Origin: Sorex araneus
Lineage: Eukaryota; Chordata; Mammalia; Eulipotyphla; Soricidae
DNA: 64,000 nucleotides
Direction: 5' to 3'
NCBI RefSeq assembly: GCF_027595985.1
Contig: NC_073307.1
Span: 45,548,594-45,612,593 of the forward strand
Shown: piece by piece, positions 1,573 through 62,926 of the stretch
How positions within the stretch are numbered: the first letter of the stretch is position 1
Layout: every line of letters starts with the position of its first letter
Notes under the pieces: generated by a model
Told to the model about the DNA's origin: nothing
Databases searched by the model: none
Seen by the model: the letters and a program-made list of their open reading frames with translations, nothing else
Translations under genes and position numbers: made by a program

Positions 1573-1815
1573 TGGAGCAATAGCACAGTGGGCAGGACGT
1601 TTGCCGACCTGGATTCAATTCCCCCATCCCTCTTGGACAGCCCAGCAAGCTACCAAGAGTATCTCGCCCCCATGGCAGAGTCTAGCAAGCTACCGTGGCA
1701 TGTTCAATATGCTAAAAACAGTAACAACAAGTCTCAGAATGGAGACGTTACTGGTGCTCACTCGAGCAAATTGACGAACAACGGGATGGCAGTGACGGTG
1801 ACAGTGATGATACTT
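1573..1815 (+). mobile_element. RTE-tailed tRNA-SINE
   Basis: A tRNA-derived head with a deletion between the A and B boxes, then the RTE-like body (AGCAAGCTACC twice, CAGTAACAACAAGTCTC) and tail GGAGACGTTACTGGTG ending in GTGACAGTGATGATA repeats. Confidence 0.85.
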
Positions 1816-3690: not shown

Positions 3691-3785
3691 AGCTTGGTAA
3701 GCATGAACAGAGACTGCATCACTGCTGCAGCATCATTTGCACCACTGGGCTTCTCCTTCACTTAATACATAAGTATATAAAAGAT

Positions 3786-4081
3786 CATGTATCACTGTCG
3801 TCCTGCTGCTAATTGATACCCCAGTAACATCTCCATTCGTCCCTGTCACATTTAGGGTCAGGGGAATGAGGCCCATTATTGCTACAGGTTTCGGCTTATT
3901 GAATATGCCATGGGTAGCTTGCCAAGCTCTGCCCTGTTCTACATCACTCTCTTCCAGGAACTTTGTTTTCCGCTGCCAGAGATCTGCTTGGGGCCGGGAG
4001 GGAAATTCAACCTGCTCCCCCCCCTCTGAGGGGGCCCCTGGTGAGAACAGCCTGCCTGGCGCAGAGGCAGGAGATTCTGCC
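3786..4081 (-). mobile_element. Internally deleted RTE derivative, 296 bp
   Basis: Flanked by an exact 11-bp duplication ATATAAAAGAT (3775-3785, 4082-4092). In minus orientation it begins with about 230 bp related to the RTE 5' leader (including a readable Arg-Ala-Trp-Gln-Ala segment) and passes straight into the last 60 bp of the RTE (GAGATGTTACTGG to GACAGTGATACATG). All coding sequence is missing. It has no tRNA head. This is the architecture of ruminant Bov-A relative to BovB. Confidence 0.83.
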
Positions 4082-4240
4082 ATATAAAAGATATAGAAAA
4101 TAAAGTGATAGCGCACTCCATTTTGCAGTCAACCACATGCTCACTTAGTATGCATGGTTTTGGAATTTCTCCTCCTTCTCTCCACCACCAATTCTCTCGC
4201 ATATCTTCAATAAAACCATCTTTCAAATAAAAATGCCATG

Positions 4241-9160: not shown

Positions 9161-9578
9161 AAATTATAGAGAAAATGAAAAACATGCTGATTTTGACTGA
9201 TCAGGCATCTAAATAAACTGGGTTCTGTAAGACAGAAGTAAACTTGTAGGGGTGAATCAGCTTGACTCTTATCTAGACTGTGCCTTTCAGTATGTTTATA
9301 GCCATCTTTGATGATTCTTTGATTTCGGAAATCAAAGCTTTATTCAGGCATTGGTGGGTGGTGTGAGGGTCCGGGGGGAGGGGAAGCTAGCTATGGGAGT
9401 CTGCATTATATCTAACTCAATGATATTTTTTATTATATAATTTGTGTGTAATTGCCATTACATTCAAGATAAAGAATGTCCAGTCACCATAAAGAACTCC
9501 CATATACTACTTCTGTACAGTTTCATCTAACATACTCCATCCCTAACTAACCACCATTTTTAACTTCTGGTACCTAGT

Positions 9579-10122
9579 GAATGGCAGAGAGTCTCTTGCC
9601 CACACGCCTGGCTGTCTTCCCCAGGGCCCCTCAGAGGGAATGGGCTCCAGCTTCTCTCCCCACCCCAAGCAGAGCTCCCGGCGGCCAAAGACCACCTGAA
9701 CCTAGCTACAGCCATGCTCGAGGCCCCTCTCCACACGTTCGGACAGGCCTCACACATGAAGGCACTGGCAGAGGAACCCAGGTGTGTGTAATCCCATCAA
9801 CGGCCAACATCCAGAGAGAGACTTAAAAGCAAGCTCTCAGAAGTGCAAGGCCGCAAAGCTTTAGCCTACTTCTCCCTCTGGGAGAAACTGGCAATCTTTG
9901 AGAGTTTCCTGCCCACATGGGACAGCCTTGCAAGCTTCCCATGGTGTATTCATATGCAAAATCCAGTAATAAGCTGGATTTCATTCCCCTGACCCTGAAG
10001 AGCCCCCAGTGCAACATCGTTAGGAGGGCCGTGTCGAAATGGACTTCTAAGATCTCAGGGAAAGGATGAAATGAGATGTTACTGAGCTCGCCCGAGAAAT
10101 TGGTGATTGACAGGATTTCGTA
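9579..10122 (+). mobile_element. Short RTE derivative, about 544 bp, copy 1
   Basis: Flanked by the 9-bp duplication GTACCTAGT (9570-9578, 10123-10131). The last 230 bp resemble the RTE 5' leader (a Cys-Pro-type block around 9900, then CATTCCCCTGACCCTGAA) and the final 60 bp resemble the RTE 3' end (GATGTTACTGAG to GACAGGATT). The first 300 bp are GC-rich and probably the fuller 5' UTR of a second RTE subfamily. No coding capacity. Confidence 0.75.
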
Positions 10123-10214
10123 GTACCTAGTAGTTTGTTTTCCATGTCCATAATTTTATAATTCTAAAAATATTGTATTAATCAAATTACAGTACGCAAA
10201 CTTTGGAAATGAGC

Positions 10215-11096: not shown

Positions 11097-11618
11097 ATAG
11101 AGTCTCTTGACTGCATGCCTGGCTGTCTTCCCCAGGGCCCCTTGGAGGGGATGGGCTCCAGCTTCTCTCCCCACCCCGAGCAGAGCTCCCGGCGGCCGAA
11201 GACCACCAGAACCTAGCTACAGCCATACATCCATGGTTCTGTAAGCACCACGTTCGGACAGGCCTCATGCATGAAGGTACTGGCAGAGGAACCCAGGTGT
11301 GTGCAATCCCATCAACAGCCAACATCCAGAGAGAGACTTAAAAGCAAGCGATATCTTTAGCCTACTTTTCCCTCTGGGAGAAACTGGCAATCTTCTGAGA
11401 GTTTCCTGCCCACATGGGACAGCCTTGCAAGCTTCCCATGGTGTATTCATATGCAAAATCCAGTAACAAGCAGGATCTCATTCCCCTGACCCTGAAGAGC
11501 CCCCAGTGCAACATCATTAGGAGGGCTGAGTCGAGATGGACTTCTAAGATCTCAGGGAAAGGATGAAATAAGATGTTACTGAGCCCGCCCGAGAAATTGG
11601 TGATTAACGGGATTTCGT
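11097..11618 (+). mobile_element. Short RTE derivative, copy 2
   Basis: Closely matches the copy at 9579-10122 in the same orientation, starting at AGAGTCTCTTGA and ending at GGGATTTCG. It differs by scattered substitutions and a small indel (about 20 bp lost after AAAAGCAAGC, near 11350). I could not define a target duplication. The two copies are 1.0 kb apart; separate flanks argue for separate insertions. Confidence 0.75.
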
Positions 11619-14726: not shown

Positions 14727-14910
14727 TTTTTTTTTTTTTTTTTTTGCTTTTTGGGTCACACCTGGCGATGCACAGGGGTTACTCCTGGCTCTGCACTCAG
14801 GAATTATCCCTGGCGGTGCTCAGGGGACCATATGGGATGCTGGGATTTGAACCCGGGTCGGCCGCGTGCAAGGCAAACGCCCTACCCGCTGTGCTATCTC
14901 TCCAGCCCCC
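14727..14910 (-). mobile_element. Poly(A)-tailed tRNA-SINE
   Basis: Near-consensus copy with a 24-base T run, flanked by TAAAAATATCTTTT at 14713-14726 and 14911-14924. Confidence 0.92.
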
Positions 14911-16060: not shown

Positions 16061-17105
16061 CCATCTAAATAGTTATATTTAAAGTGTGTTTCTTTAGACA
16101 GTGAATAAAAGAAACAAAATGACAAAATAAATGTCACATTTCTTTTCTGTCTAATATGAAAGTTTCTTATAATTTTCATATTTATTAGAATGTTTACATA
16201 ATTTGTATAATTCCATCTAGCATACAACACAGCACTGTATATTAAATAAATATTATTTTCATAAATTATATGTTATTTATGAATATAGTATAATATAGAT
16301 AATTGATATGGTTTGATTTGAATGTGTCAGTTTGATTTTTATTTTTTTGATTTATGTTTATTTCTTTTTTCTGCCTTTTAGACCTACCTAGCATTCTTTT
16401 CACTTATCACTTGTCATCCTGTTGATCTTCTATTTGCTTGAGCAGGCGCCAGTAACGTCTCCATTCGTCCCTGTCACATGCTAGTATAGACCAATGTTAT
16501 CTGCTAGCTCCAGGAACACAAACTGTTCAATTCAGAGTTTTGACAAAGAAGTCAGACCATCTCGTAGGTGAGTGGCCATGCGGTCTTTTGACGTCTCATG
16601 GAATCCAGTCCATAACAGCTCTAGTCCAGTGGTCATCTCAAAATCTCACTATGAGTTCAGCCCATCTTTGACACCTTGGCAAAAGAGACAGTGTCCCTGA
16701 TTCTTGATGCTCGACAGAGGATTCCTTCTCTCACTTGAATGAAACTTGATACTCCAAGCATAGCTCTTTCGATTCTTCTTTGGAATACCCGAATAGCATT
16801 CTCATCCTGTTTTCTTAGGGCCCAAGTCTCTGAGGTGTATGTTAGTGCAGGAAGAACAGTGGAGTCGAAAAGATGTGTCCAGAGCCAGAGGTTTTTCGTC
16901 CTCTAAATCACTTCTTCTATGCTCTGAAGGCGTTCTGTGCTGCTTTCTTCCTCCTGTGCGGTTCTGGCTCCAAGTCGTTCCTTATGTTGAGTTCTCGACC
17001 CAGGTACACATAGCTGCTGCATTCAGAGATGTTCGTTCCATTGAGAGCAAATGGAACGTCAGGGACTAGTTTGTTTTTCATGAACATTGTCTTGGTGAGA
17101 TTCAG

Positions 17106-17771
17106 CTATAGTCTGACCTTTCCACACTTGCGGTCAAAGTTGCCCAGCATTTGTGCCGCTTGACTAATGTTTGGTGTTATTAGAACAATGTCATCAGTGA
17201 AGCAGAGGTGGTGTAGTTGCTGACCATCTATCTTCACTCCTATTCCTTCCCATTCCAGTAACTGCATGACATTCTCGAGGATAGCACTGAAGAGTTTTGG
17301 TGAAATGGTATCACCCTGCCGTACCCCTCTCTTTATGTCAATGATCACTTCCTTGTAGAATGGTGAGATCCTGGTGGTGAATTCATAATACAGCTCACAG
17401 AGGATCTTGATGTACTGAGTTTGAACACTCTGTTTGGCTAGGACTTTGATGAACGTTGCAGTCTTAACAGAATCAAAGGCCTTCTTTGAATCAATGAATA
17501 TTAGACAGAGTGGCATCTTGAACTCTTGTTAAACTTCAATGAGCTTGGTCCCTGTGTGAATATCCAGCTCTGTGTGCTCATATGGTTGTCCTTCATCTAG
17601 TGTTCTGCCTATTCTCTTCAGGATGACTCGAGTGAACAACTTGTAGATGATGGATAACAAGCAGATTGGGTAATAGTTGCCGATGTCGTGGATGTCTCCC
17701 TTCTTGTACAACAGAACGGTTCTGCTAGTTTTCCATTGGAACGGAACCTTGCATTCGGACAGGTAGCACAT
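17106..17771 (-). pseudogene. RTE reverse transcriptase domain, broken
   Basis: Two fragments (17529-17771 and 17106-17516) separated by a stop. The first has the fingers motif with Leu-Leu-Tyr-Lys-Lys-Gly-Asp and Pro-Ile-Cys-Leu-Leu-Ser. The second has motif A (Phe-Ile-Asp-Ser-Lys-Lys-Ala-Phe-Asp), the RTE-diagnostic motif B (Gly-Val-Arg-Gln-Gly-Asp-Thr-Ile-Ser-Pro) and motif C as Phe-Thr-Asp-Asp, keeping both catalytic Asp. The C-terminal part and 3' UTR (16399-17105) have no long open frame. Confidence 0.88.
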
Positions 17772-17863
17772 GAAGAGCCGAGCCAGTGTATTGACGAGTA
17801 GTGGTGGCAGATTCTTCAGGTGTTTGGGTCTGACCTTGTCCAGACCGGGTGCTGTACATGTCT

Positions 17864-18223
17864 TTACTGATGAAATGATTGTTGGATTTCAGAAGGGAGG
17901 ATGTTGGGAATGACATATCCATCCTGCGGAATTTGGTATGTGGGCAGGTGGATGTGGCTGTCAAAGAGATCCAAGTAGAAGTCGTGAATAATCCTCTCTA
18001 TTGCCCTTCTAGAAGATGTGATAGATCCATCAGTATGTCTGACGGTGGTCGTCTTGGTCTTGTAGTTGGCGAGGGACAGGCAAGCACTGCAAATACTTTT
18101 CCCAGCTTCTGTTGCATCAGCTAACACTGCTGCTCTTCTCTCTTTGAGGTCTTCCTTTTTCACTTCTCTGCACAGCTTTGCAAGCTCAGACGTTAGCTTG
18201 TGGTTGCCTGAGGCTCGTGCCAA
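17864..18223 (-). pseudogene. RTE region between endonuclease and reverse transcriptase
   Basis: A fragment of 119 codons with the Lys/Arg-rich linker typical of RTE proteins (a run of Leu-Lys-Glu-Arg-Arg-Ala-Ala-Val-Leu near residues 25-35) and an Ile-Ile-His-Asp-Phe-Tyr-Leu-Asp-Leu-Phe segment that precedes the polymerase domain in this clade. It is out of frame with the endonuclease fragment; about 470 bp at 18224-18697 are broken in all minus frames. Confidence 0.7.
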
Positions 18224-18697
18224 ACCACGTTGGCGAATGAGCGCGAGAATTTCTGAAGATAGGTGTCAGTTTGTGGCTTTTCCATTCTCGGCATTCCTCT
18301 CGAAGTCATGGAGATCCTGAATCAATCAATTGTATTCCTCATTGATGTTGTCAAGGACGGCATCTTCCCACATTGCTGCAATAGTGCAGAAGAGCTCCCA
18401 GTTGGTGGTCATTCTGGGAGTTTTCTTCTTGAACTTAAACTTTGCAGTCCTTTCTCCCCACTCTGTGAAGTAGAATTTTGCACAAAGGAGATGGTGGTCT
18501 GATGCCGCTTAGAATTTTGGGATAACAGCGACATGGGTCAGGCAAAACCTTCAATTAAACATGATGTGGTCAATTTTGTTGTGCAACTGTCCACTGAGAA
18601 ACTCCCATGTCCAATGTTTAGATTCAGCCTTCTGGAACTGTGAATTACCATGGATGGTCTTGGTTGACATGATGAACTCAGACAGTCTCTCACCCTG

Positions 18698-19453
18698 TTA
18701 GTTCCATTCTAGACCATGGGACCCACTGTGGAGTTCTTCAGGTGACCTTCTCGGTCCTATCTTGGCATTGAAATCACCGACAATGATCTTGTAGAAGGTG
18801 TGGTCTTCTTTATAAAACTTCTCCAGCTCCATGTAGAACCTCTCAATTTCTTCTTCAGCGTATTTGCATGTTGGTGTGTAGACAACAAAGATAGAAATTG
18901 TTGGCAGTGAGCCACATCTATTCAAGCATAATCGTCTGATTTGAGTTGTTAGGCATTCGAATGAATCAATGTTCATGGCCAAGTTCATGTTGACAAGGAC
19001 ACTGACATCACTGACGCCTCTATTGTCACATATTCCTAGGAACAGTTCTTCTCCAGTGTGGAAAATGGCATGATGTGATTGATGCCTTCTCATCTTGGTC
19101 AGACCAATGATATCATACTTGATTTTCTGCGCTTTCACCATCAGGTCCTCGATGGATGCTGCTAATGTCAGTGTCCGTGCATTGAAAGTACAGACAATCA
19201 TTTTAGTCTGTCTTCGTTTTGGCAGTCTAGTTAGTCCCTGAGATTTTATCAGCCTCTCCTTGATCATCATTCTTAACACTGCTGTATTGGGGGGATCTTT
19301 CAGTGTCAGGGAAATGAGATCCATTGTTGTTACTGTTTTCAGCATGTCAAATACACCACGGATAGCTTGCCAGGCTCTGCCGTGCAGGTGGGATACTCCT
19401 GGTAGCCTGCCAGGCTCTCTTAGAGGGATGGAGGCTCTTAGGGCAGCCTCCAA
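18698..19453 (-). pseudogene. RTE 5' leader and endonuclease domain, degenerate
   Basis: An open stretch of 251 codons. Roughly residues 85-251 form the endonuclease domain, with Thr-Phe-Asn-Ala-Arg-Thr-Leu at 89-95, Tyr-Asp-Ile-Ile-Gly-Leu-Thr at 113-119 and Val-Gly-Asp-Phe-Asn-Ala at 225-230. The family's catalytic Glu after Gly-Leu-Ser/Thr is Lys here (position 120), so the enzyme would be dead even before the downstream stop. Residues about 1-84 translate the 5' leader (for example Arg-Ala-Trp-Gln-Ala near 26-30), which reappears in the short RTE derivatives and in the RTE-tailed SINEs. Confidence 0.85.
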
Positions 19454-19705
19454 TGGCCCTTACAGGTGTCCCCATGGTTCACACCATATTTGAACCTCAT
19501 CAAATATGGTATGGTAATTATGGAAAATGGGTATTAAATCTCTTATGATGTGTTCAGAAAGAGGCCTGGCATTTGGCAGTGGCTGGGTAGTTGAGGTAGT
19601 GGAGTTTGGCTGATGAGGTATTCATCTGGCCCTGCTAGGGTGGGGTTGACTGGGTTTGATCCCTGGGGTGCCGGAGCACTGCCAGAGAATGCACCTAGCA
19701 TTCTT

Positions 19706-20091: not shown

Positions 20092-20272
20092 TCCTGTCCT
20101 GTCATCCCGTTGTTCATCGATTTGCTCAAGCAGGCACCAGTAACGCCTCCATTGTGAGACTTGTTACTGTTTTTGGCTTATAGAATATGCCACGGGAGTT
20201 TGCCAGACTCTGCTGTGCGGGTGAGATACTCTCGGTAGCTTGCCTCACTCTCTGAGAGGGACAGGAAATTTT
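20092..20272 (-). mobile_element. RTE-tailed SINE, head missing
   Basis: RTE-like tail and body only, from CATCCCGTTGTTCATCG to CTCTGAGAGGGACAGG; the tRNA head is absent, so it is either 5'-truncated or a headless derivative. Confidence 0.8.
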
Positions 20273-21874: not shown

Positions 21875-22710
21875 TTAAAATTTTTTATTGAGTCACCATG
21901 TGGAAAGTTACAAAGTTTTCAGGTTTAAATCTCAGTTATACAATGCTCGAATACCCATCCCTTCACCAGTGCTCATATTCCACCACCAAGAATCCCAGTA
22001 TAGCTCCACCCCGCCCCCTCACACCCCTAACCCCCCCATGCCTCTAGCCCCCCCCACCCTAGGCCCCCCCAGCCTGTGTAACTAATAAATTTCACTTTAC
22101 TTTCACTTTGATTGCATACAATATTTCAACAAAACTCACTATTATTGTTTGGAGAGTCTCTCCCCTAAAGTCAGACCTGCTGAAAAGGAAGCATTAGATA
22201 ATTTGTTTTCCATTGCTGAGGATGAAGAGGTATGAGGTCGAGTGACCACGCTTAGCGGCTTCTCAGTTTTGGGTTTCTGTAATTTAGTATTTTAGTAACT
22301 AAGTCCAGAGAGATATCTGCCAGAAGTTGCATCGTTGCCAACTTGTACTTCTCAGTTACATTATATTCCACATATGAGTGCAATCTTTCTATGTCTGTCT
22401 CTTTCTTTCTGACTCATTTCACTCAACATGATACTTTCCATGTTGATCCATTTATATGCAAATTTCATGACTTCATGTTTTCTGACAGCTACATAGTATT
22501 CCATTGTGTAGATGTACCAGAGTTTCTTTAACCAGTCATCTGTTTTGGGGCACTCTGGTTTTTTCCAGATTCTGGCTATTGTAAACAGTGCTGCAATGAA
22601 CATAGAAATACATATGCCATCTCTACTATACCGTTTTGCCTCTCCGAGATATATTCCCAGGAGTGGTATTGCTGGGTCAAATGGGAGCTCAATTTCTAAT
22701 TTTTTTAAAT
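21875..22710 (-). mobile_element. L1 3' end, antisense, outer element of a nest
   Basis: Runs from the L1 3' terminus (TTTATTGAGTCACCATGTGG) through the UTR to ORF2 (CTGCAATGAACATAGAAATAC, GGGAGCTCAATTTC). The same text resumes at about 23308 (TAATTTTTTGAGAAGTATCC). Confidence 0.8.
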
Positions 22711-22714
22711 TTAT

Positions 22715-22867
22715 ATGTTTTTTATTAGTGAATCACCATGAGGGTACAGTTACAGATTTACATATTTTCCTGCTTGTGTTTCAGTCATACAATACTCGAG
22801 TACCCATCCCTCCACCAGTGCCCATTCTCCACCACCGATGATCCCAGTATCTCTCCCACCCCCCCAC
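22715..22867 (-). mobile_element. L1 3'-end fragment, antisense
   Basis: TTATTAGTGAATCACCATGAG to GATCCCAGTATCTCTCCC; inverted relative of 23560-23705. Confidence 0.8.
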
Positions 22868-24126: not shown

Positions 24127-24331
24127 TACATCAATCAATTTTATACTTAATTTAGCATCAATTATTAGTGGATCATTCAATTTACTGTCATTCTATTTCC
24201 TATGTCTCTATTTACAATTTTTAACCATATGGAATTTTTCTTCAGTTTTAATATCCTCTGTCTTATATTGCTAACATTTTTGCTAATTTGTTTTGCTTTG
24301 GCTAAGTTTTCTGAACATTTATCTTAACAGT

Positions 24332-24490
24332 TTTGAGGGTCACACCCAACAGTGCTTGAGGTCTACTCTTGTCTGTGCTCAGGGACCACTCTTGGCATTA
24401 CAAGGGGCACCATATACGTGGTCAAAGACTGAACTGCACTCGGTTGTATACAAGACAAATGCCTTAATCCCTGTATCATTTCTCTGGCCC
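24332..24490 (-). mobile_element. tRNA-SINE, diverged
   Basis: GAGGGTCACACCCAACAGTGC to TATCATTTCTCTGGCCC. Confidence 0.75.
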
Positions 24491-25920: not shown

Positions 25921-26301
25921 AGTAACTTATAAATAGACTTTTTAACAGTAATCATACTTTAGCATGTGTCTAATCAAAAATTGTATGCAAACTTCTAGTT
26001 AAATCCTAAGGAACTAAACTATATCACTACCTAGTACCAGAATCTTATTTTAAAAATGTAATAAATACTTGTATTTAATTCCTAAAGACATTAACTAAGT
26101 AGAAAAAAATACAGTCATATACTCCTGTATCAACCTTATTTCCCTACTTTTCTCCAGTGGCAAAGGAAAGAAAAGCAGAAATAAATAAATGAGGCTGCTT
26201 CAAGTTATAAAGATTCTTTAAAATGCAGGCGATTTGCATCTAAAAGAACTGAGGTATCTTGCTAAATGGGAGAAGGTATTTACATGTATATCCAAGAGAT
26301 T

Positions 26302-26558
26302 AGACTGGAGGGATAGCACATGGGGTAGGGTATTTGCCTTGCACTCCGTCGACCCGGTTTCCATTCCTCTGCCTCTCTTGAAGAGACCAGCAAGCTACCG
26401 AGAGTATTTCGCCGGAACAGCAGAGCCTGGCAAGCTACCCGAGACGTATTCAATATGCCAAAAACAGCAACTACAAGTTTCACAATGGAGAGGTTACTGG
26501 TGCCCGCTCGAGTAAATCAATGAGCAATTAATGACAGTGAAACAGTGGCAACAGTGAT
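26302..26558 (+). mobile_element. RTE-tailed tRNA-SINE
   Basis: Complete copy with A box TAGCACATGGGG and a B-box relative, RTE body, and an ACAGTG repeat tail (GTGAAACAGTGGCAACAGTG). Confidence 0.85.
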
Positions 26559-26627
26559 CAAAGAGGTTGATCCAGACTTTTCCATAAAACTCAAGAATAA
26601 ATCTAAAAAGAAAAGATTTTTTAAATG

Positions 26628-31612: not shown

Positions 31613-31764
31613 TTTTGGAGCTGGTGATGCTCAGGGTTTACTCCTGGCTCTGTGCTCAGGACTTATTCTTAGCAGTGCTCAGGGTATATGGAGAGCTGGG
31701 GACTGAACCTAGGTTGGCAGCATGCAAGGCAAGTGCCCTACCCACTATGCAATCTCTCCAGCCC
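31613..31764 (-). mobile_element. tRNA-SINE, diverged
   Basis: GGTGATGCTCAGGGTTTACTC to CAATCTCTCCAGCCC. GATTCATA follows, matching the tandem repeat just before it. Confidence 0.8.
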
Positions 31765-39192: not shown

Positions 39193-40180
39193 ACAAAAAA
39201 TAGGACATCATCTTTTGAGGTGTAGTTCCACTTTGAGTTTTTTGTCCGTGAGAAGAAAAAAATAGAAACAAGTTAGGAAATTCAGATTTCCTGGGCCTGT
39301 TAAGACCCAACTCTTTGTCCCCAGGGCCCTGAGAAAAACTCCTTGGGCATGATGCCAAACTCTCCCAGTGGCGGCAATCCAACAGAAGGATATAACTGGT
39401 TCTAACTCAGACTCTATGAACTGCCAGTGTCTTTTTTTTTTATGTCCTTATTAGATGCTTTCATTTTAATACTTTGGCCAGAGAAAAGGGAAAAGTGATT
39501 TTCTCTATTAAAATATCAGAATAGAAGTGTAACTCTGATGAATACAAGGCCCCAAATATGGAAGTGCCTCTTAATATAGAAACACAACTGTTCAGAGGGG
39601 ATAAGAAGGGGACAAGGTTGAATAGACAAGGTTGAATAGACATGCTTTTATTACTAAATCTTAGAACAATAATAAATCTTAAGCAAGAGTTGAATGTTGC
39701 TTCAAACTCTTTGCTTTCAGAATTAGTGTCAAAAAAGTTACCTACATATCTGCTGCAGTGCTTACAAACCCGATTTCTCTCCTCTCGAACCCTAAAGGTA
39801 GAAAAGATCTTGAGTTATCCTTTGAAAATTCATTATATCTAAGACTCCTAATTTGCTTATTCTCACTTTCTGACCACCATCCCAACTCAACACTGGAACC
39901 ATGCCAACAATAAGCTTACCATTTTAGGATAATTGTGTTATAATGAGTCTTTTAAATATCAGGTTAGTGTGTGTCAGAGAATTTAATTTCACATGGTGAA
40001 AAATATTAGGATAATAAAGTGCTGATCATAAGCACTGCGTCTAGTGAAGAGACTGAGAAGATAAAGTGAACAAGGTTGAACTAAGGATGGGGGAGACTCA
40101 GGGCAAAATGAATGGTTTTTCCCTATCCTTTTGAAAACAAAATATAAATAAGCAAATTATAGTAGTATATATTATTTGGT

Positions 40181-40422
40181 CACTATCATCCCATTGCTCA
40201 TCAATTTGCTCGAGTGGGCATCAGTAAGGTCTACATTGTGAGACTTATTTTTGCTGTTTTTTTTTTTCTTTTTGGCATATCGAATACGCCACACCCTGGG
40301 TAGCTTGTCAGGCTCTGCCGTGTGGGCGGGATACTCTTGGTAGCTTGCCTGGCTCTCTGAGGGGGATGGAGAAATTGAACCCGGGTCGGCTGCGTGCAAG
40401 GCAAACTCCCAACCCACTGTGC
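40181..40422 (-). mobile_element. RTE-tailed tRNA-SINE, intron 3
   Basis: Tail and body complete, with a T-rich insertion expanding the middle (about 40255-40272). The A-box end of the head is cut at ACCCACTGTGC. Confidence 0.83.
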
Positions 40423-43765: not shown

Positions 43766-44086
43766 TTAAGCTTCTCTGTTAAATATGTTTAATATATGTT
43801 GTTCTTTTTTATCTTTGACAAGATAGGATGTTTCTGCTATTAGTTTTCTAAAATACCTTATGTGGAAACTTTTAAACAATATTTTGATTTTTCTATTTAT
43901 ATATTAATGCAATAAATTTTAGATAAATATACTAATGTTAGAAAGTCAATGTTTTTTAGGGTATAACATTCTCAACTGTGGTACTTTATTTAATGTTCTA
44001 TTAAATTTGAATTGCTAATTTTGTATTTAGAGACGATTGAACATACGTAAATGATTCTTTACTTTTTTTCTTCTTAATATTTGTCT

Positions 44087-44334
44087 GGGCTGGAGCAATA
44101 GCACAGTGTACGTAGAGCATTTGCCTTGCACACGGCTGAAGTGGGTTTGATTCCTCCGCACTTCTCAGCGAGCCCGGCAAGCTACTGAGAGTATGGAGCC
44201 CGCACGGCAGAACCTGGCAAGCTACTCATGGCATATTTGATATGCCAAAAACAGTAACAACAAGTCTCACAATGGAGACGTTACTGGTGCCCACTTGAGC
44301 AAGTCGATGAGCAATGGGATGACAGTGATACGTG
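44087..44334 (+). mobile_element. RTE-tailed tRNA-SINE, intron 4
   Basis: Complete copy flanked by AATATTTGTCT (44076-44086) and AATATTTATCT (44335-44345), an 11-bp duplication with one change. Ends GGGATGACAGTGATACGTG. Confidence 0.87.
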
Positions 44335-45251
44335 AATATTTATCTACAGTTACATTGAGAAGTGTCACTTTAGACTTTGGTTTAATGAGAAAATTAACAA
44401 ATTCTCTTCCCCTATGCAACTATATAAGACTGCAAAATTGATCAAACAGTTGTTTTAACCCTCTGGAAATTCACCAGAGACTATGTGTGATAAATCATTC
44501 ATAAAATTAGGGACCAACTTTGTATAAAAAATGGAGGGGGATGTCTTTAGTGTTCTTACTTAGGGATATTCCTATCTTACTTCTATTACTTGGCTGAATA
44601 AGAGATTAAAAAAAAAGCAAGGCAGACAACTATTGAAAGGAGATTGTCTAATTTGGAGTAAGAGACAATATTCATACCTGGAGATATGTTCAGTGGTAGT
44701 TGTGGTCTTCACCAAGATTAAAGAGGAGAACCTGAGGTTGTAGCAAGGTTGGGGCAGTCATATTTCTGACTATTTCTTTACACCTGGCAACAGAAACTAA
44801 GAGAAACTAGATTACAGGCAAGCACATAATAATTTCAGGCAACCACATTGATGTATATAAAAACCACAAGGTAAAGTAAATGCAAGTATGAACATAGAAT
44901 GGCCTGAACAGTGAGTTCCCTCCCCTACACACACTGTTCCATTTTCAGAGCACAGAAGACTAAAACATTCTGTTTCCATCCAAAATTATAAAAGACAACA
45001 TAATTTGAATGTATTATTCATAGTTGAGGAAAATGAGGTTACCTATGAAAACTATATCTGACATGTTAGAGGTGACAAAGATTAAAAATGAACTTATTTC
45101 AAAAGTTTCAAACACTAATACTTGAAGAATTGTAAGAAAGTATGAAAGCAATAAATTAATGCATAGATATTTTAATGAGGAAATAGTAAGATTTATCACA
45201 ACTGAAAACTCTAAAGCTGAAGAACGCAGTAACTCAATAAAATTTTCAATC

Positions 45252-45480
45252 AAGGACTGGGAGGTAGTACAAAGCTTAAGGTGCCTACAATGTGCTGCAC
45301 TTCAGTCTGATCACCAGAACCACATGGTCCTCTGAGTCTTGTTGGGTGTAGCCCCTGAAGGCCTCTAGCACTGCCAGGGTACCCATGAATCCTCAGCTCT
45401 CCAGGGCCTAAGCAATGCAACACCCTTGCATTGAACGATTGGCCTGGTTGGACAAGAATCACTTGTGGTCCCCAGGGCTT
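45252..45480 (+). mobile_element. Old tRNA-SINE, intron 4
   Basis: GACTGGGAGGTAGTACAAAGC head with CACATGGTCCTCTGAGTC tail segment; the last half is uncertain. Confidence 0.55.
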
Positions 45481-45547
45481 CCTGTGAAGTTCCCCTTCTC
45501 TCAAAAAAGAAAAATTTAATAGAGTGTCTAAAAATAAACTCAAAGAT

Positions 45548-45935
45548 ACAGAAATCCAAAACCATGTGGCTGCTAGTGTGGCCGCTTGACCTCATATCTC
45601 TTCATTCTCAACAATAGAAAACAATTATCAAATGCTTCCTTTTCAGCAGGTCTGATTTTAGGGGGGAGAAACTCCAAATAATAATAGTGAGGATTTTTTG
45701 TTGAAATATTGAATGTAATCAAAGTAAAGTGAAATTTATTAGTTACACAGGCGGGGTGGGGGCTGGAGAGGTGGAGGGGTTGGGGAGGTACTGTGATCCT
45801 TGGTGGTGGAATATGTGCACTGGTGAAGGGATGGGTGTTTGAGCATTGTATAACTGGGACTTAAACCTGAAAGCTTTGTAACTTTCCACATGGTGATTCA
45901 ATAAAATAATAAATTTTTAAAAAATAAAATAAAAT
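45548..45935 (+). mobile_element. L1 3' UTR, sense, intron 4
   Basis: AACTCCAAATAATAATAGTG, GGAATATGTGCACTGGTGAAG and the end CACATGGTGATTCAATAAAA with an A-rich tail. Confidence 0.85.
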
Positions 45936-46101
45936 AAAAATAAACTCAGAGAGCATAAAATGCAGTAACAATAAATTTTAAAAACGATTTATAAATTAAT
46001 AAATAAGAAGTTCCCCTTTTCTCACAAATAGAAAAATTCAGTAGGGCACCTAAAATAAATTCTGAGATAATGTAAAATATAGTCACAATAAATATGATGA
46101 T

Positions 46102-46350
46102 TGTAGCACTGTAGCACTGTTCTGTTTTTCATCGATTTGCTTGAGCAGGCACCAGTAACTTCTGCATTATGAGATTTGTTGTTACTGTTTTTGGCATATC
46201 AAATACGCCATGGGTGGCTTGTCAGGCTCTGCTGTGTGGGTGGGATACTCTCGGTAGCTTGACTGCCTCTCTGAGAGAGATGAAGGAATTGAACCTGGGG
46301 CAACTGCGTGCAAGGCAAAGGCCCTACCCACTGTGCTATCACTCCAGCCC
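46102..46350 (-). mobile_element. RTE-tailed tRNA-SINE, intron 4
   Basis: Complete copy flanked by AAATATGATGAT (46090-46101, 46351-46362). The tail reads GTAGCACTGTAGCACTGT, two tandem copies of the terminal octamer-like unit. Confidence 0.9.
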
Positions 46351-46849
46351 AAATATGATGATAGATATGTAAAAATTAACAGTGGAATTGTGTATAAATT
46401 ATAGAGAAAATACTGAGTAAAGTTGAATAGAGAGATCTTGAGACAATGAGCAAGTCATGGGAAGCTAGTAGACAAAAATATTTATAATAGCTTTGATCCC
46501 CTGTGGATAGTATCAGAAGTAGAAAGCATGAGAGTATTGAAAAAACAGAAGTATGGTGAATGTAACTGTATTACTTGCCTTATTAGGTGTGAATTTTAAA
46601 CATCCAATCAAAAGGCAAATTACCATATAATAAAAATCTATAGCTTCGAAGACACAAAGAGTCTCAAATGATGTCACTGGGACACCATGCCAAATGCAAT
46701 CATAAAAGCTAAGAATTTTCTCTATTTCTATATAAAAATAGATATGAAGACATATAATGGTACTACTGATACAGGGAAATTTTAAGAATTATCAGTTCAG
46801 CAATAGATAAGAATTATAACATGTATCAACTAATCAATACTTAAAAATT

Positions 46850-47880
46850 ATGCAGAAGTAGTGTGAGTCAGCATTATTATAAACAGGTTTATAATATAAA
46901 ATATAAATATGCCCAAAGTTTAGTAGCAAATATTTTTAAAGAGGAAAAAAATGGACAATATAACAGTCATAGTTGAGGAGTCAGAGAGATAGAATAATAG
47001 GTAAGGCATTTACCTCACATGTGGTTGACTCTGGTTTGAACCCCTCCACCACAACTGGTACCCCAATTCCTGCCAGAATGACCCCTGAGCATAGAGTTAG
47101 GAGTAAGCCCTGGGCATAGCCTGTGTAGCTCAAAACCCAACATTTAAAAGAAAACTATTTAAAATATACAAAAGAAGTAATAGTTCAGAAATTGATAAGT
47201 CAAAAAGTAAAATATCATCAAAGACAGGTTACTAAAGCAACACTTTCAAGTATCTTACTCAAATTAAAAGAGAGTGATTCCCAATGATAATACAAGGTAC
47301 ATTCTTTTCAATAAATATTCTTTAGAATATAAGTATCTCTCAATATATGAAAAGATTCCAATCATACAAAGCATATCTTCTAACAATATCAAGTATTAAA
47401 TGGGTTATGAAGCTAGAACAAAAAGTAAAATAGAGAAATCTCCAAGTAATTTGACATTATCCAATAGATTACAGAAATAATAATCCAAAATCAGAGCATA
47501 ATTTGAATTCAGTAGAAAAAGCATGTAAGATTCAGCTCAAACATGACTTATGAAATTTAGATAAAACATTATAGAAAATTTTAAATATCTAAATAAACAA
47601 AAGGTTCTTAAATATATATTCTAAAATAAATTTGAAAAATTGAGAAAAAAGCAAGCAAGCAAAAGAAACATAATAAAATACATCAGAAATTAAAAAATAC
47701 AAAAGCAACAGAAAAAATTTTAATGCAGACTGACTTTAGATAAATTAAACAAGAAAATAATAACAAAAGTAGGAATAAATAATGCTATATGCCTCAGGAA
47801 ATTTACAAGGATCATAATGAAAGATTGTAAGCAAATATCCAGACTATCTAGCAGTCACTGGCATAAGAGAGAAAATTCAG
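46850..47880 (+). mobile_element. Old L1 ORF2 fragment, sense, intron 4
   Basis: GAGTGATTCCCAATGATAATA with TACAAGGTACATTCTTTTCA parallels the conserved L1 ORF2 text; A-rich, heavily mutated, no open frame. A SINE interrupts it at 46975. Confidence 0.65.
46975..47145 (+). mobile_element. tRNA-SINE, diverged, intron 4
   Basis: GGAGTCAGAGAGATAGAATAA head and GAGTTAGGAGTAAGCCC tail, inserted within an old L1 stretch. Confidence 0.7.
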
Positions 47881-50546: not shown

Positions 50547-50697
50547 GGGCTGGAGCACTGTAGCACAGCAAGCAGGGCAATTGCACTGCACACAGCTGAC
50601 CCAGGTTTGATCCCTGCCATTCCATAAGGTCCCCTGAGCCCCACCAAGAGTGGTCCCCGAACTCAAGCCTGTACACTGATGGGTGTGGGCCAAAATC
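50547..50697 (+). mobile_element. tRNA-SINE, diverged, intron 4
   Basis: Head GGGCTGGAGCACTGTAGCACAG and tail GGTGTGGGCCAAAATC; no clear duplication. Confidence 0.8.
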
Positions 50698-50771
50698 AAA
50701 AATATCAAAACAAACAAAAATATTTATCAGGGTGATAGGGACATTGTTAAAGTTGTGCTTCTTCCTCTTTT

Positions 50772-51205: not shown

Positions 51206-51398
51206 ATTAAGTATCACTGTATCACTGTCATCCCATTGCTCATCGATTTGCTTGAGCAGGCACCAGTAACGTCTCTATTGTGAGACTTGTTACTGTTTTT
51301 GGCATATTGAATATGCCACAGGTATCTTGCCAGGCTCTGCCATACGGGCAGGATACTCTCGGTAGCTTGCCGGGTTGACCCAGGTTTGAATTGAGAGC
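51206..51398 (-). mobile_element. RTE-tailed SINE, partial head, intron 4
   Basis: Tail with tandem GTATCACT units, complete body, then a junction at CCGGGTTGACCCAGG where most of the tRNA head has been lost. Confidence 0.8.
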
Positions 51399-52685: not shown

Positions 52686-52870
52686 TTTTTATTTATTTAT
52701 TTATTTATTTATTTATTTTTTTTTTTTTGCTTTTTTGGGTCACACCTGGCTCTGCACTCAGGAATTACTCCTGGCGGTGCTCAGGAGACCATATGGGATG
52801 CTGGGATTTGAACCCGGGTTGGCTGCGTGCAAGGCAAACGCCCTACCCGCTGTGCTATCACTCCAGCCCC
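52686..52870 (-). mobile_element. Poly(A)-tailed tRNA-SINE with deletion, intron 4
   Basis: Flanked by AATTCTGTGTATTTTTA (17 bp) at 52669-52685 and 52871-52887. Long (ATTT)n tail; lacks about 25 bp after TCACACCTGGC. Confidence 0.92.
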
Positions 52871-54022: not shown

Positions 54023-54196
54023 TTTTTTTTTTGCTTTTTGGGTCCCATCCAGAAATGCATAGGAGTTACTTCTGGCTGATGCACTCAGTAATTACTCCTG
54101 GCGGTGCTCAGGGGACCATATGGGATGCTGGGAATCAAACCTGGGCCGGCCGCGTGCAAGTCAAATGCCCTGCCCACTGTGCTATTGCTCCAGGCC
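54023..54196 (-). mobile_element. Poly(A)-tailed tRNA-SINE, first of a twin, intron 5
   Basis: Tail at TTTGCTTTTTGGGTCCCATCC, head ending CTATTGCTCCAGGCC. Preceded by CCCCTTCTTTTC, which recurs after it. Confidence 0.88.
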
Positions 54197-54200
54197 CCCT

Positions 54201-54377
54201 TCTTTTTTTTTTTTTTCTTTTTGGGTCACACCTGGCACTGCACAGAGGTTACTCCTGGCTGCGCACTCAGGAACCACCCCTGGCGGTGCTCAGGGGACCA
54301 TATGGGATGCTGGGATTCAAACCCGGGTCGACAGGTGCAAGGCAAACGCCCTACCCGCTGTGCTATCACTCCAGCCC
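54201..54377 (-). mobile_element. Poly(A)-tailed tRNA-SINE, second of a twin, intron 5
   Basis: Starts within four bases of the first copy's end; followed by CCCCCTTCTTTTTTA. The shared CCCCTTCTTTT at all three boundaries suggests two insertions at one target. Confidence 0.88.
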
Positions 54378-55023
54378 CCCCCTTCTTTTTTAAGGGAAAA
54401 ATATACACCTAGTAAAGCTTTACAATTCTACAAAAAAATTCAGATACTATTGTTTTATCAAATAGACATCTGGATATTTATAGCTATAAATACATAACTC
54501 CCTCCACACACATATACACAAGACCTATATAGACATATGTGTATATATGCATTTTATCATTGACCTATTTCATACCTATATATTTAGAAGTAGATCTTTT
54601 TATGGAGAACTATTTAATGGTAATAATATTTTGTGCAAACATTTATAAATAGAATAAATCATTGGAACTTTTAATATTGAACATCTTCCCATCTGTTCAG
54701 TCTTTGTCACATAGCTACAGTGTCTCTCTGTCCTATATTTTGTCCCCATTTGGTTCCTTCTCCACCCTCTATGCAAGGTTTGGTTATCGATTGTCCTCAG
54801 CTAACAAGATGACAGACCTGCTTTTCAGGTTCTGGTTTATGACCTCAATACTGAACTGTCTACTCTTCAGATTTTTCAGACTATAGCAAACAATTTTGAG
54901 AAGCCTTGTGTAGGATTTGACAAAATACACTCTGAAATTATTCCTTCGATCCTCACAAGCAGAAAACAAAAATAGACACAGAAAAAACACACATTAGAAA
55001 AGAATGCTTCATGCTGACTTTCT

Positions 55024-59326: not shown

Positions 59327-59369
59327 GTAAATTAATCACTCGCACTATTTAATTCTTATGATCATAACT

Positions 59370-59571
59370 GTAGCACTGTAGCCCTGTTGTTCATCGATTT
59401 GCTTGAGTGGGCACCAGTAACATCTCCATTGTGAGACTTGTTACTGTTTTTGACATATCAAATATGCCACGGGTAGCTTGCCAGGCTCTTCGAGAGGGAC
59501 AGAGGAATCAACCCCGGTCTGCCGCATGCAAGGCAAACGCCCTACCTGCTGTGCTATCGATCTAGTCCATA
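59370..59571 (-). mobile_element. RTE-tailed tRNA-SINE, intron 8
   Basis: Flanked by ATCATAACT (59361-59369, 59572-59580). Lacks about 40 bp of the body between CAGGCTCT and TCGAGAGGGA. Lies 43 bp after the exon 8 donor. Confidence 0.88.
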
Positions 59572-60064
59572 ATCATAACTACAAACCAAAATTGAACTTC
59601 TGAGGTAATAGAATTGTTTTCTGTTATTACATTGAGTTTCTTCCCTTAATTTCAAAATCTCCCAAGTTCACATATCCTAATATATTAATCACTGAATTCA
59701 AATTTAAAACTACATTTTCCACTTGAAACTAAAAATTGTGTTACCTTACTGCTTAAAAAAAGATGAGGGAAGAAATAAAATGGAAAATTTATACAAATTA
59801 CATTCTACATAATTTCCATTAGACTTGTCCTTGACATAAACTCAGTTTTGCTTTGAATAAATTATTTTTGAAATGCCCACAATGTAAATTAAACAGTAAT
59901 AACTTTAAAACTACCCAAGTTTTTAAAACAGTGTGCTGACTAGTTTATGCTATATTTAATCCTATTAATACAAATTGAAGTTAATAATTTTATTATGTTA
60001 ACTATTTGCAACGAGTTCCACATTTAAATATACTTTGCTTCTCTTTATGTGAAAATGTCAAACA

Positions 60065-60228
60065 GGGTCTGGTGTAAAAACTACAGTGGGTTCAGTGCTT
60101 GCCTTGCATGTGGTCAACCCAGGTTCAATCCCTGTCACCCAGAGACCTGTCAGGAGTGATCTTTGAGAACAGAGCTAGGAGTATAACCTGAGCATTACTG
60201 GGTGTGCGCCACCCCATCAAAAAAAAAA
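60065..60228 (+). mobile_element. tRNA-SINE, diverged, intron 8
   Basis: CAGGGTCTGGTGTAAAAAC head, GGTTCAATCCCTGTCACCC, tail ending in an A10 run. Confidence 0.75.
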
Positions 60229-61831
60229 GAGAGAAAAGAATGTAAAATAAACATATTGGATTGTGGTTTGAAAACTATCCTTTAAATTAATTTTCAAAGC
60301 TTTTTTAATAATTTCCTTTCTAATCCAGTAAAAAATAATCCTTTTGTTAATTATAGAATCATTGCAGCAAGGATATCCTAAATTGCCAAAGGAATTAAAT
60401 CTTAGTTGCAATGAAAGTAATATTAGTTATTGTGCTAAATGACTAACCTTTTGCTGAGAAGTCAGAACACTTGAGGTTTAGCCTTAGTTCTGTCATGTTT
60501 TGGGTGTGGAAAACAGGGTCAGTCATTCTCTCTGAGCCTCTATTTTCTTAACAGCAAAATTAGGGGACTTATTGATATTTATCCTACTGGCAAAATTGCT
60601 TTCCTTCCTACATATGCACTGTGCATAAAGAATATTTCCAGTCTATAAATTAGGTAGGACATATATTTTTCTAATAAGAGACACCAGAGCTGAAATTCCT
60701 CTTCATAGTCAGAATTCCTTGAAGAAAATTTTCACCCTAAATAAGATGTCCAGAGTTTAAATTAGAAACATAAATCATTTTTATCATTTGCTCAACATGG
60801 GAGATTTTAAAAAATAAATAGTTTTTGTAGTGGTTGGTAAATTTCAGTGTAAAATATTGGGTTATCTGTGAATATTGTATCAATCTAATCCTATAAAAGT
60901 TTGATTCTATCCTTGACTGTGCAATTGACCCCTTTTACTCAAATTATAGATATTTATTTATAATGAGACACACTTGAAACTTCTATGATACTAGAATCCT
61001 ATGTTATTTCAATGAAAAATTATTTTGAATATAATATAAAGTTTGAAAAACAAAATAAAGCAGAACAAAACTTTGGGTAATCTTCATATGACCTTCAGCA
61101 TTTCTCTGTTCCCTAAACTCAGAGTTCTATTCCGCTGTATTTTATCAGCATATATTCCCCCTTTCCTCCTGTAGGTGGCTTGATTGGTTTGGTGGGATTA
61201 TTGGCATGATCATGCTGCATAGGACTGGCCTTATAGTGATTGCTCAATATCTGCCCCATAATTAGCCTGTCAGTGGGTTGCCCACAAGACTATTTCTTCA
61301 GAATATCCTTGGATGAGTCACAACTTATAAACTGAAATTATCATTGTTTCCTTTATGGGAATCATTGAGTCCTAATTTAATTGCAATGCTATGATTATCA
61401 GGTGACTGACTTCTGCATTTGTATTCCTAGATTGTTACAACCAGGAAGTTTGGAGCACACCCATTGCTCTTCCTGAACAAATACCTGTTTATTTAGCATT
61501 CTCCTTTAAAATACCCTATGAAATATGAGATCTTGAAATATCAGAGAATATTAAACCTAAAGAAAGTCCTAAATATCATCTATTCCTAAAACAATTATGT
61601 ACTTGCTGAGAGTGAGGTTTCAGAAGTGATTGGAATTGGCTTCGGTTTCCCAGAGAGTAAGAGAGATAATCTAGCACCCAGGTTTTCTGATTCAAACTGC
61701 ACTCTTTATGCTCAGGTTTGCCTGACTGAAGGGGAAGATAAGGATCACTGAGTTATATAAAGGAAAAAGAAAGGCTATAAAAGCATCTTATTGAGAATGG
61801 CATACTAGAATCATAAGAAATACTATATTGT

Positions 61832-62009
61832 GGGGCTGGAACGATAGCACAGTGGGTAGGGCGTTTGCCTTGCACACGGCTGATCCGGGTTCGATTCTCA
61901 GCATCCCATATGGTCCCCTGAGCACCGCCAGGAGTAATTCCTGAGTGCAGAGCCAGGAGTAACCCCTGTGCACTGCCAGGTGTGGCCCAAAACGCAAAAG
62001 AAAATAAAT
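61832..62009 (+). mobile_element. Poly(A)-tailed tRNA-SINE, intron 8
   Basis: Near-consensus copy flanked by AAATACTATATTGT at 61818-61831 and 62010-62023. Confidence 0.93.
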
Positions 62010-62349
62010 AAATACTATATTGTAGTTATATAAACCATTAGATTGATTGATTAGAAATTCCCACGTTTACAATCTATATTAATATATTTATAAATATCAG
62101 TATTTATGTAATGTCAATAATATAATAAAGCATGATACATAATATAGTACATAAATATGAAATATAAAATTCACTTATTTAAATTTCTACCATACCAAAT
62201 AGTAGAATTTTCAAAACCCAGAGCCAAATTTAAAGGTTTAGAATATAATCCCAAACATTAGGAAACCTGGGTACAAATCTCTCTTGGATTTTGATGAGGA
62301 TGGGGATTCAAATTTTTAGACTCCCAAAAGAAATACCAACCTTGATTTT

Positions 62350-62675: not shown

Positions 62676-62926
62676 ACTGTAATACTGTAGCACTGTAGTC
62701 CCATTGTTCATCGATTTGCTCGAGCGGGCACCAGTAACATCTCCATTGTGAGACTTGTTACTGTTTTTGGCATATCGAATATACCACGGGTAACTTGCCA
62801 GGCTCTGCCGTGCAGACGGGATACTCTCAGTAGCTTGCTGGGATCTCCAAGAGGGATGGAGGAATCGAACCTGGGTCGGCTGCCTGCAAGGAAAATGCCC
62901 TACCCACTGTGCTATCGCGCCAGTCC
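62676..62926 (-). mobile_element. RTE-tailed tRNA-SINE, intron 8
   Basis: Complete copy with near-consensus tail, body and head (TCGAACCTGGGTCGG B-box region). Confidence 0.87.

Follow-up and report, generated by a model that had tools for sequence, protein, structure and literature searches.

Among described systems, the closest is Bov-tA, a ruminant SINE that joins a tRNA-Glu head to a Bov-B tail (PMC3747384) and that, like Bov-A2, is termed RTE-dependent (PMC8620236); the accessible text of PMC13295347 treats the Bov-B LINE itself as likely acquired by horizontal transfer. Ped-2 of the springhare carries the head of an ID SINE on a BovB tail, and in Bov-A2, RTESINE1, MAR4 and RTE1-N1_LA the 5' end of an RTE is joined to the tail (PMC3747384). 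In shrews, Sor is listed as a T- SINE (PMC8466645), and the LINE RTE1_Sar is reported from nine parasitic nematodes and, among the mammals tested, from Sorex araneus alone, a distribution for which horizontal transfer has been invoked, with a nematode origin thought likelier and the direction unproven (PMC6542046). The accessible text of PMC8384839 cites RTE1_Sar once.

In a 64-kb window of Sorex araneus DNA (the whole stretch that was analyzed; Table 1), we consider it quite probable that one pol III promoter serves two SINE families, of which family A moves on L1 and family B, an A head joined to a deleted RTE, is moved by RTE. The earlier note on this DNA had proposed one tRNA head common to two SINE families with different tails, and the comparison bears this out: a run of A in the tail (at least 10 A in 12) is present in 17 of 19 copies of family A and in none of the nine of family B, and the consensus heads of young A and B are identical at 62 of 66 positions.

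Table 1. Coordinates of the features in the 64-kb window
Feature	Coordinates	Strand	Remarks
Family A SINE, full, A-rich tail	61832..62009	+	flanking duplication of 14 bp, exact, 61818-61831 and 62010-62023
Family A SINE, among the least diverged copies	14733..14909	-	head called tRNA-Ala(TGC) by ARAGORN
L1 ORF2 C-terminal fragment	22361..22732	-	L1 present in the same sequence
Fragment, probably of an L1 3' end, lying between copies 44087 and 46102 of family B	45735..45940	+	81% over 199 nt to 22037-21841, downstream of the ORF2 fragment
Broken, nearly full-length RTE	16399..19692	-	258-nt leader; region in common with B from 19434; reverse transcriptase among the frame pieces; 3' end near 16400
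5' target-site duplication of the RTE copy	19693..19705	-	13 bp, exact
3' target-site duplication of the RTE copy	16386..16398	-	13 bp, exact
Family B SINE, full	44087..44334	+	head 44087-44152, RTE 5' part from 44153, RTE 3' part starting near 44266, tail of the CAGTGATA type
5' target-site duplication of copy 44087, AATATTTGTCT	44076..44086	+	10/11 identical to 44335-44345
3' target-site duplication of copy 44087, AATATTTATCT	44335..44345	+	
Family B SINE, full, ACAGTGCT repeats in tail	46102..46350	-	
3' target-site duplication of copy 46102-46350	46090..46101	-	12 bp, exact
5' target-site duplication of copy 46102-46350	46351..46362	-	12 bp, exact
Family B copy, internally deleted	59370..59568	-	duplication 11/12 identical, 59569-59580 and 59358-59369
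Family B copy	26302..26556	+	duplication 10/12 identical, 26290-26301 and 26557-26568; relaxed rule only
Family B copy with the lowest divergence among the nine (0.032, non-CpG K2P)	62686..62926	-	rule-found duplication without T|A, off the head
Family B copy	1573..1795	+	no duplication by strict or relaxed rule
Family B copy, head shortened at its 5' end	40180..40422	-	no duplication by strict or relaxed rule
Headless RTE 5'+3' part of family B	51211..51374	-	
Headless RTE 5'+3' part of family B	20099..20261	-	

The window is mammalian-type sequence rich in family A, from which 19 near-complete copies were aligned; their common plan is a 67-nt head and a body, followed by the end GTGTGACCCAAAAAGC and a tail rich in A. 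Target-site duplications were called by a strict rule applied alike to both families (score of at least 8 at +1/-2) and by a relaxed rule with a lower mismatch penalty. By the strict rule 15 of the 19 copies have one, 14 of them measuring 11-18 bp (the 18-bp duplication contains a mismatch) and one 8 bp. The earlier note, which had given the common SINE as GTGTGACCCAAAAAGC plus poly(A) with 10-17 bp duplications, was right about the consensus end and the A tail but too narrow about the lengths, which run from 8 to 18 bp, and its example, copy 61832, ends in GTGTGGCCCAAAACGC instead of the consensus. At 54024-54378 (-) two family A copies stand head to tail with few bases between them, the duplication of the upstream copy running into the head of its neighbor; copy 54024 passes the strict rule and was left out of the family A duplication counts, as its match is the tail belonging to the neighboring copy. 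ARAGORN calls tRNA-Ala(TGC) in five family A heads. The single tRNA that Rfam reports at the gathering cut-off also lies inside a family A head, at 52794-52864, so Rfam is uninformative on the heads of family B.

Taken together with the L1 sequence in the window, where the segment at 45735-45940 is one of the probable L1 3' ends, to judge from the position of its match downstream of the ORF2 fragment, the anatomy of family A would fit a resident SINE mobilized by L1. Older, more diverged A-like SINEs are also present (24330-24490 (-), 46983-47147 (+), 50547-50703 (+), 60069-60226 (+) and others), and they suggest that elements with this head and body followed one another for a long time before the young copies. 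Family A fits the shrew SINE named Sor and, to judge from the host, would be that element.

Family B is represented by seven headed and two headless copies. In a headed copy the 67-nt head is followed by RTE 5' region (about 113 nt), RTE 3' end (about 66 nt) and a tail of the CAGTG type. The middle of B corresponds to 19434-19314 (-) and the 3' part to 16465-16400 (-), both ends of one RTE copy, which confirms the RTE 5'/3' fusion described in the earlier note. Identity to the RTE 3' end is 76-87% where aligned, and one longer alignment (26484-26617) stands at 65%. The ACAGTG-type repeats in which B had been said to end hold for most copies and not for every one, at least one terminal CAGTG being present in seven of the nine; duplications are lacking under the strict rule in three of the seven headed copies. 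The coordinates given at the outset for one example of each family, 46102-46350 and 61832-62009, proved exact, with perfect flanking repeats of 12 and 14 bp, respectively. Two forms of tail are seen, CAGTGCTA in copies 46102-46350, 59370-59568 and 62686-62926 (-) and CAGTGATA in the copies at 44087 and 51211, a division that suggests subfamilies of B. Divergence, as non-CpG K2P, is 0.060 for family A (sd 0.034, n=19) and 0.070 for family B (sd 0.030, n=9), and these overlapping values indicate that the families are of similar age.

The sharing of the head extends to individual copies. The seven headed B copies match the family A profile at E values of 1.3e-10 to 4.7e-18 (1.9e-12 for the copy at 44087 and 1.6e-16 for that at 46350), and the profile found no match at E 0.01 in one Markov-shuffled window, so that chance does not account for the likeness. 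The comparison was made among 19 young A heads, seven B heads and 14 older A-like heads, the last a subset picked from weaker profile matches, and descent was judged by shared states, as 67 nt is too short for a head-only tree. The old A-like consensus agrees with B at 55 of 66 positions. At positions 17, 33 and 65 all seven B heads have the young-A base, which is found in 6, 4 and 5 of the 14 old A-like heads, respectively; all seven also lie nearer to the young-A consensus than to the old one, a single base making the difference in two, and so do 17 of the 19 young A heads. Because B carries the younger A states, it most simply took its head from the lineage of A, and since the A body spans old and young copies whereas B consists otherwise of RTE sequence alone, transfer of the head from A to B is the simplest course. 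The alignment of heads that the earlier note had suggested as a way of finding the ancestral family thus points to the A lineage as donor. That the two families instead drew their heads independently from the same tRNA gene family is scarcely credible. Heads of tRNA origin arise often, and the tRNA-Ala(TGC) calls in five A heads could be read in this sense, but when A and B are compared with each other, the whole head agrees at 62 of 66 positions and derived states are shared, contrary to the heads from different tRNAs that would have refuted the note's reading.

The point at which the families part is the end of the promoter. In the consensus heads, the A box and B box patterns of pol III promoters lie at 14-24 and 57-67, and the head ends at position 67, the final base of the B box pattern, with the A/RTE join directly after it. 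A join at this point means that the piece that moved is essentially the pol III promoter, and selection to keep a promoter functional would be expected to leave a join there. The majority B box of family B is GGTTCAATTCC; the exact GGTTCGATTCC occurs in one of seven copies and the other six match at 9 or 10 of 11 positions, while the B consensus, hand-altered at CpG-type positions, owes its exact B box to one restored base. TTTT is absent from both consensus sequences.

The RTE copy whose two ends recur in B measures 3294 nt between its duplications, and an A tail is absent. In its frames Pfam detects RVT_1 (E 7.9e-15) and no endonuclease, nor any family in the first frame; an upstream frame piece shares 72% identity over 82 aa with Sorex protein P0106 in the N-terminal part of that protein, which is itself without endonuclease annotation. 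Relatives and motifs would place the LINE in the RTE clade. For the 140-aa reverse transcriptase piece, every named organism in the best 120 of 536 matches is a nematode or Sorex araneus, about twenty of these 120 rows being without an organism name. The named nematodes in this best 120 are nearly all strongylid (Haemonchus, Angiostrongylus, Necator and others), with one Plectus, and P0106 is found there at 77% identity over 56% of the query. The earlier note had not remarked on this likeness of the RTE to those of nematodes. With relatives in strongylid nematodes and Sorex alike, the window RTE fits RTE1_Sar. We infer that it is RTE1_Sar, acquired from a nematode, and the LINE behind family B would then probably have come from a parasite. 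Little probability attaches to the alternative of an ordinary, vertically inherited mammalian RTE, which would be compatible with our explanation of B. It gains from the facts that the relatives rest on one 140-aa piece and the best 120 of 536 matches, some of them nameless, and that the link to RTE1_Sar was drawn from relatives, but the named organisms in that best 120 are without exception nematodes or Sorex araneus, and RTE1_Sar is reported from none of the other mammals tested in PMC6542046.

Beyond the part shared with B, the RTE copy continues for 258 nt, so the join does not lie at the 5' end of this copy. Its leader (19435-19692) has no second match in the window; another RTE leader is common to 9588-9834 and 11099-11349 (89%) and, weakly, to 4104-3965 (66%). 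It is conceivable, if unlikely, that the RTE lineage first gained a tRNA-like head and that B is a plain internal deletion of such a head-bearing RTE. The colinearity of B with the RTE ends and the varied leaders that RTE-derived copies here have before the same region speak for this origin, but the window's sole nearly full-length RTE carries a different leader, of 258 nt, and no head, and no headed copy with coding sequence occurs in the 64 kb. Upstream of the common RTE 5' region, leaders differ among 19435-19692 (-), 9579-9872 (+), 3937-4081 (-) and the B heads, and RTE 5' ends look modular. A SINE fragment within the RTE leader was considered and rejected, as the sense score was 17.5 and the antisense score 15, with shuffles reaching up to 21 against the antisense. 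Older nonautonomous RTE derivatives, with an internal junction unlike that of B, lie at 3775-4092 (-) and 9570-10131 (+), flanked by exact duplications of 11 and 9 bp, respectively.

A published signature of RTE insertion, T|A at the cut with TTT about 10 nt upstream (PMC13295347), allowed the sites of the two families to be compared. The strict rule was passed by 15 of 19 A copies and four of seven headed B copies, and by 17.6% (A) and 9.5% (B) of swapped-flank controls; with the relaxed rule the controls passed at 39% (A) and 16.7% (B), high rates that make single relaxed-rule duplications less safe. T|A together with TTT in -13..-8 was found at three of four B sites and two of 15 A sites under the strict rule (Fisher p 0.037) and at four of five and one of 17 under the relaxed rule (p 0.003), the criterion in both cases having been coded after the B flanks were inspected; the two occur jointly at 1.07% of all window positions. 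TTT stands at -11..-9 in all four B sites that were placed by hand (44087, 46102, 59370 and 26302, the last with two mismatches; 62686, 1573 and 40180 were left out) and in two of 14 A sites, a set that excludes the 8-bp site at 31640, and TTT makes up 4.35% of window trinucleotides. The duplication of B copy 62686 satisfies the strict rule but shows no T|A, and this copy was not forced to fit the signature. Family A sites have A as the first base in 12 of 14 and C or T before it in 11 of 14. The RTE copy at 16399-19692 itself has T|A at its start and no T run. The two older RTE-derived copies give a mixed picture: T|A and TTT at -12..-10 accompany the exact 11-bp duplication of 4092 (-), and the exact 9-bp duplication of 9570 (+) shows T|A only when its first base may mismatch.

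The target-site profiles of A and B thus differ in a small sample of four to five B sites, as the earlier note had predicted. In the insertion-site and length comparison that it had outlined, run here in the window, the T run and T|A differ between the families, but duplication lengths overlap (strict rule, B 9-12 bp and A 8-18 bp) and the mean match to TTAAAA is close (3.6 of 6 for A and 3.0 for B, strict rule). Because these last two measures barely differ, the contrast is carried by the T run and T|A. We give very little credence to the idea that B is moved by L1 as A is, its RTE ends being passive cargo. The overlapping lengths, the near TTAAAA match and the presence of L1 in the window would all suit it, but the A run so frequent in A is found in no B copy, the RTE 3' end with its repeat tail is retained, and T|A with the T run marks three of four B sites against two of 15 in A. 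Mobilization of B by RTE protein is instead the likelier reading, and the earlier proposal that one promoter has been served by two machineries finds support in anatomy and in these four to five B sites.

Starting from what is observed, namely the common head, the RTE ends, the tails, the duplications and the small-sample contrast in sites, we infer an origin in which template switching would be the simplest route. An RTE reverse transcriptase copying the RNA of an internally deleted RTE (5' region plus 3' end) may have switched onto a young A-type RNA at a point immediately downstream of the B box and gone on to the 5' end of that RNA, which would yield head, RTE 5' part and RTE 3' part in the order seen. 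Template switching is described for LINE reverse transcriptases, RTE-like ones included, in the accessible text of PMC4476161. The resulting B RNA would be transcribed by pol III from the borrowed promoter, taken up by RTE protein through recognition of the common 3' end, and inserted at RTE-type sites.

A SINE of this kind, RTE-dependent, is already known; family B as a member of it is apparently undescribed in searchable papers and may be listed elsewhere. Among the papers listed in the searchable literature, no title or abstract opening describes it (Repbase and most subscription papers lie outside this scope and may list B); RTE1_Sar is named there in PMC6542046 and PMC8384839, and the accessible main text of PMC6542046 on RTE1_Sar has no mention of SINE, short interspersed, non-autonomous, truncated, tRNA or UTR. 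With the same promoter on two 3' ends, in one genome and at similar age, the families form a natural matched comparison of the role of the tail, bearing on the choice of partner LINE, the insertion site, the duplication and the spread. If the RTE is nematode derived, the pair also shows nonautonomous elements of a host adopting a newly arrived LINE, at a speed that could be dated.

Bov-A2, RTESINE1, MAR4 and RTE1-N1_LA resemble B in the RTE 5'/3' join, but no tRNA head is listed for those four. Ped-2 resembles it in that the head of a resident SINE was placed on an RTE-clade tail, but head and LINE differ, and the accessible text of PMC3747384 leaves a 5' RTE part unstated for Ped-2. By analogy, B would work like Bov-tA, as an RTE-dependent SINE, each having a tRNA head and the tail of an RTE-clade LINE. 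Bov-tA also contains Bov-B 5' sequence. Family B differs from Bov-tA in its head, in its nematode-type RTE lineage and in its host, and in that its head also occurs in this window on a poly(A) SINE of about the same age. We regard it as fairly probable that an ancestor of the shrew received a LINE from a parasitic nematode, that this LINE took over the promoter of the resident L1-dependent SINE, and that a new SINE family began in this way, with the donor SINE continuing on L1; this would make the shrew a second mammalian lineage, besides the ruminants with BovB, in which a host SINE arose from a horizontally acquired RTE.
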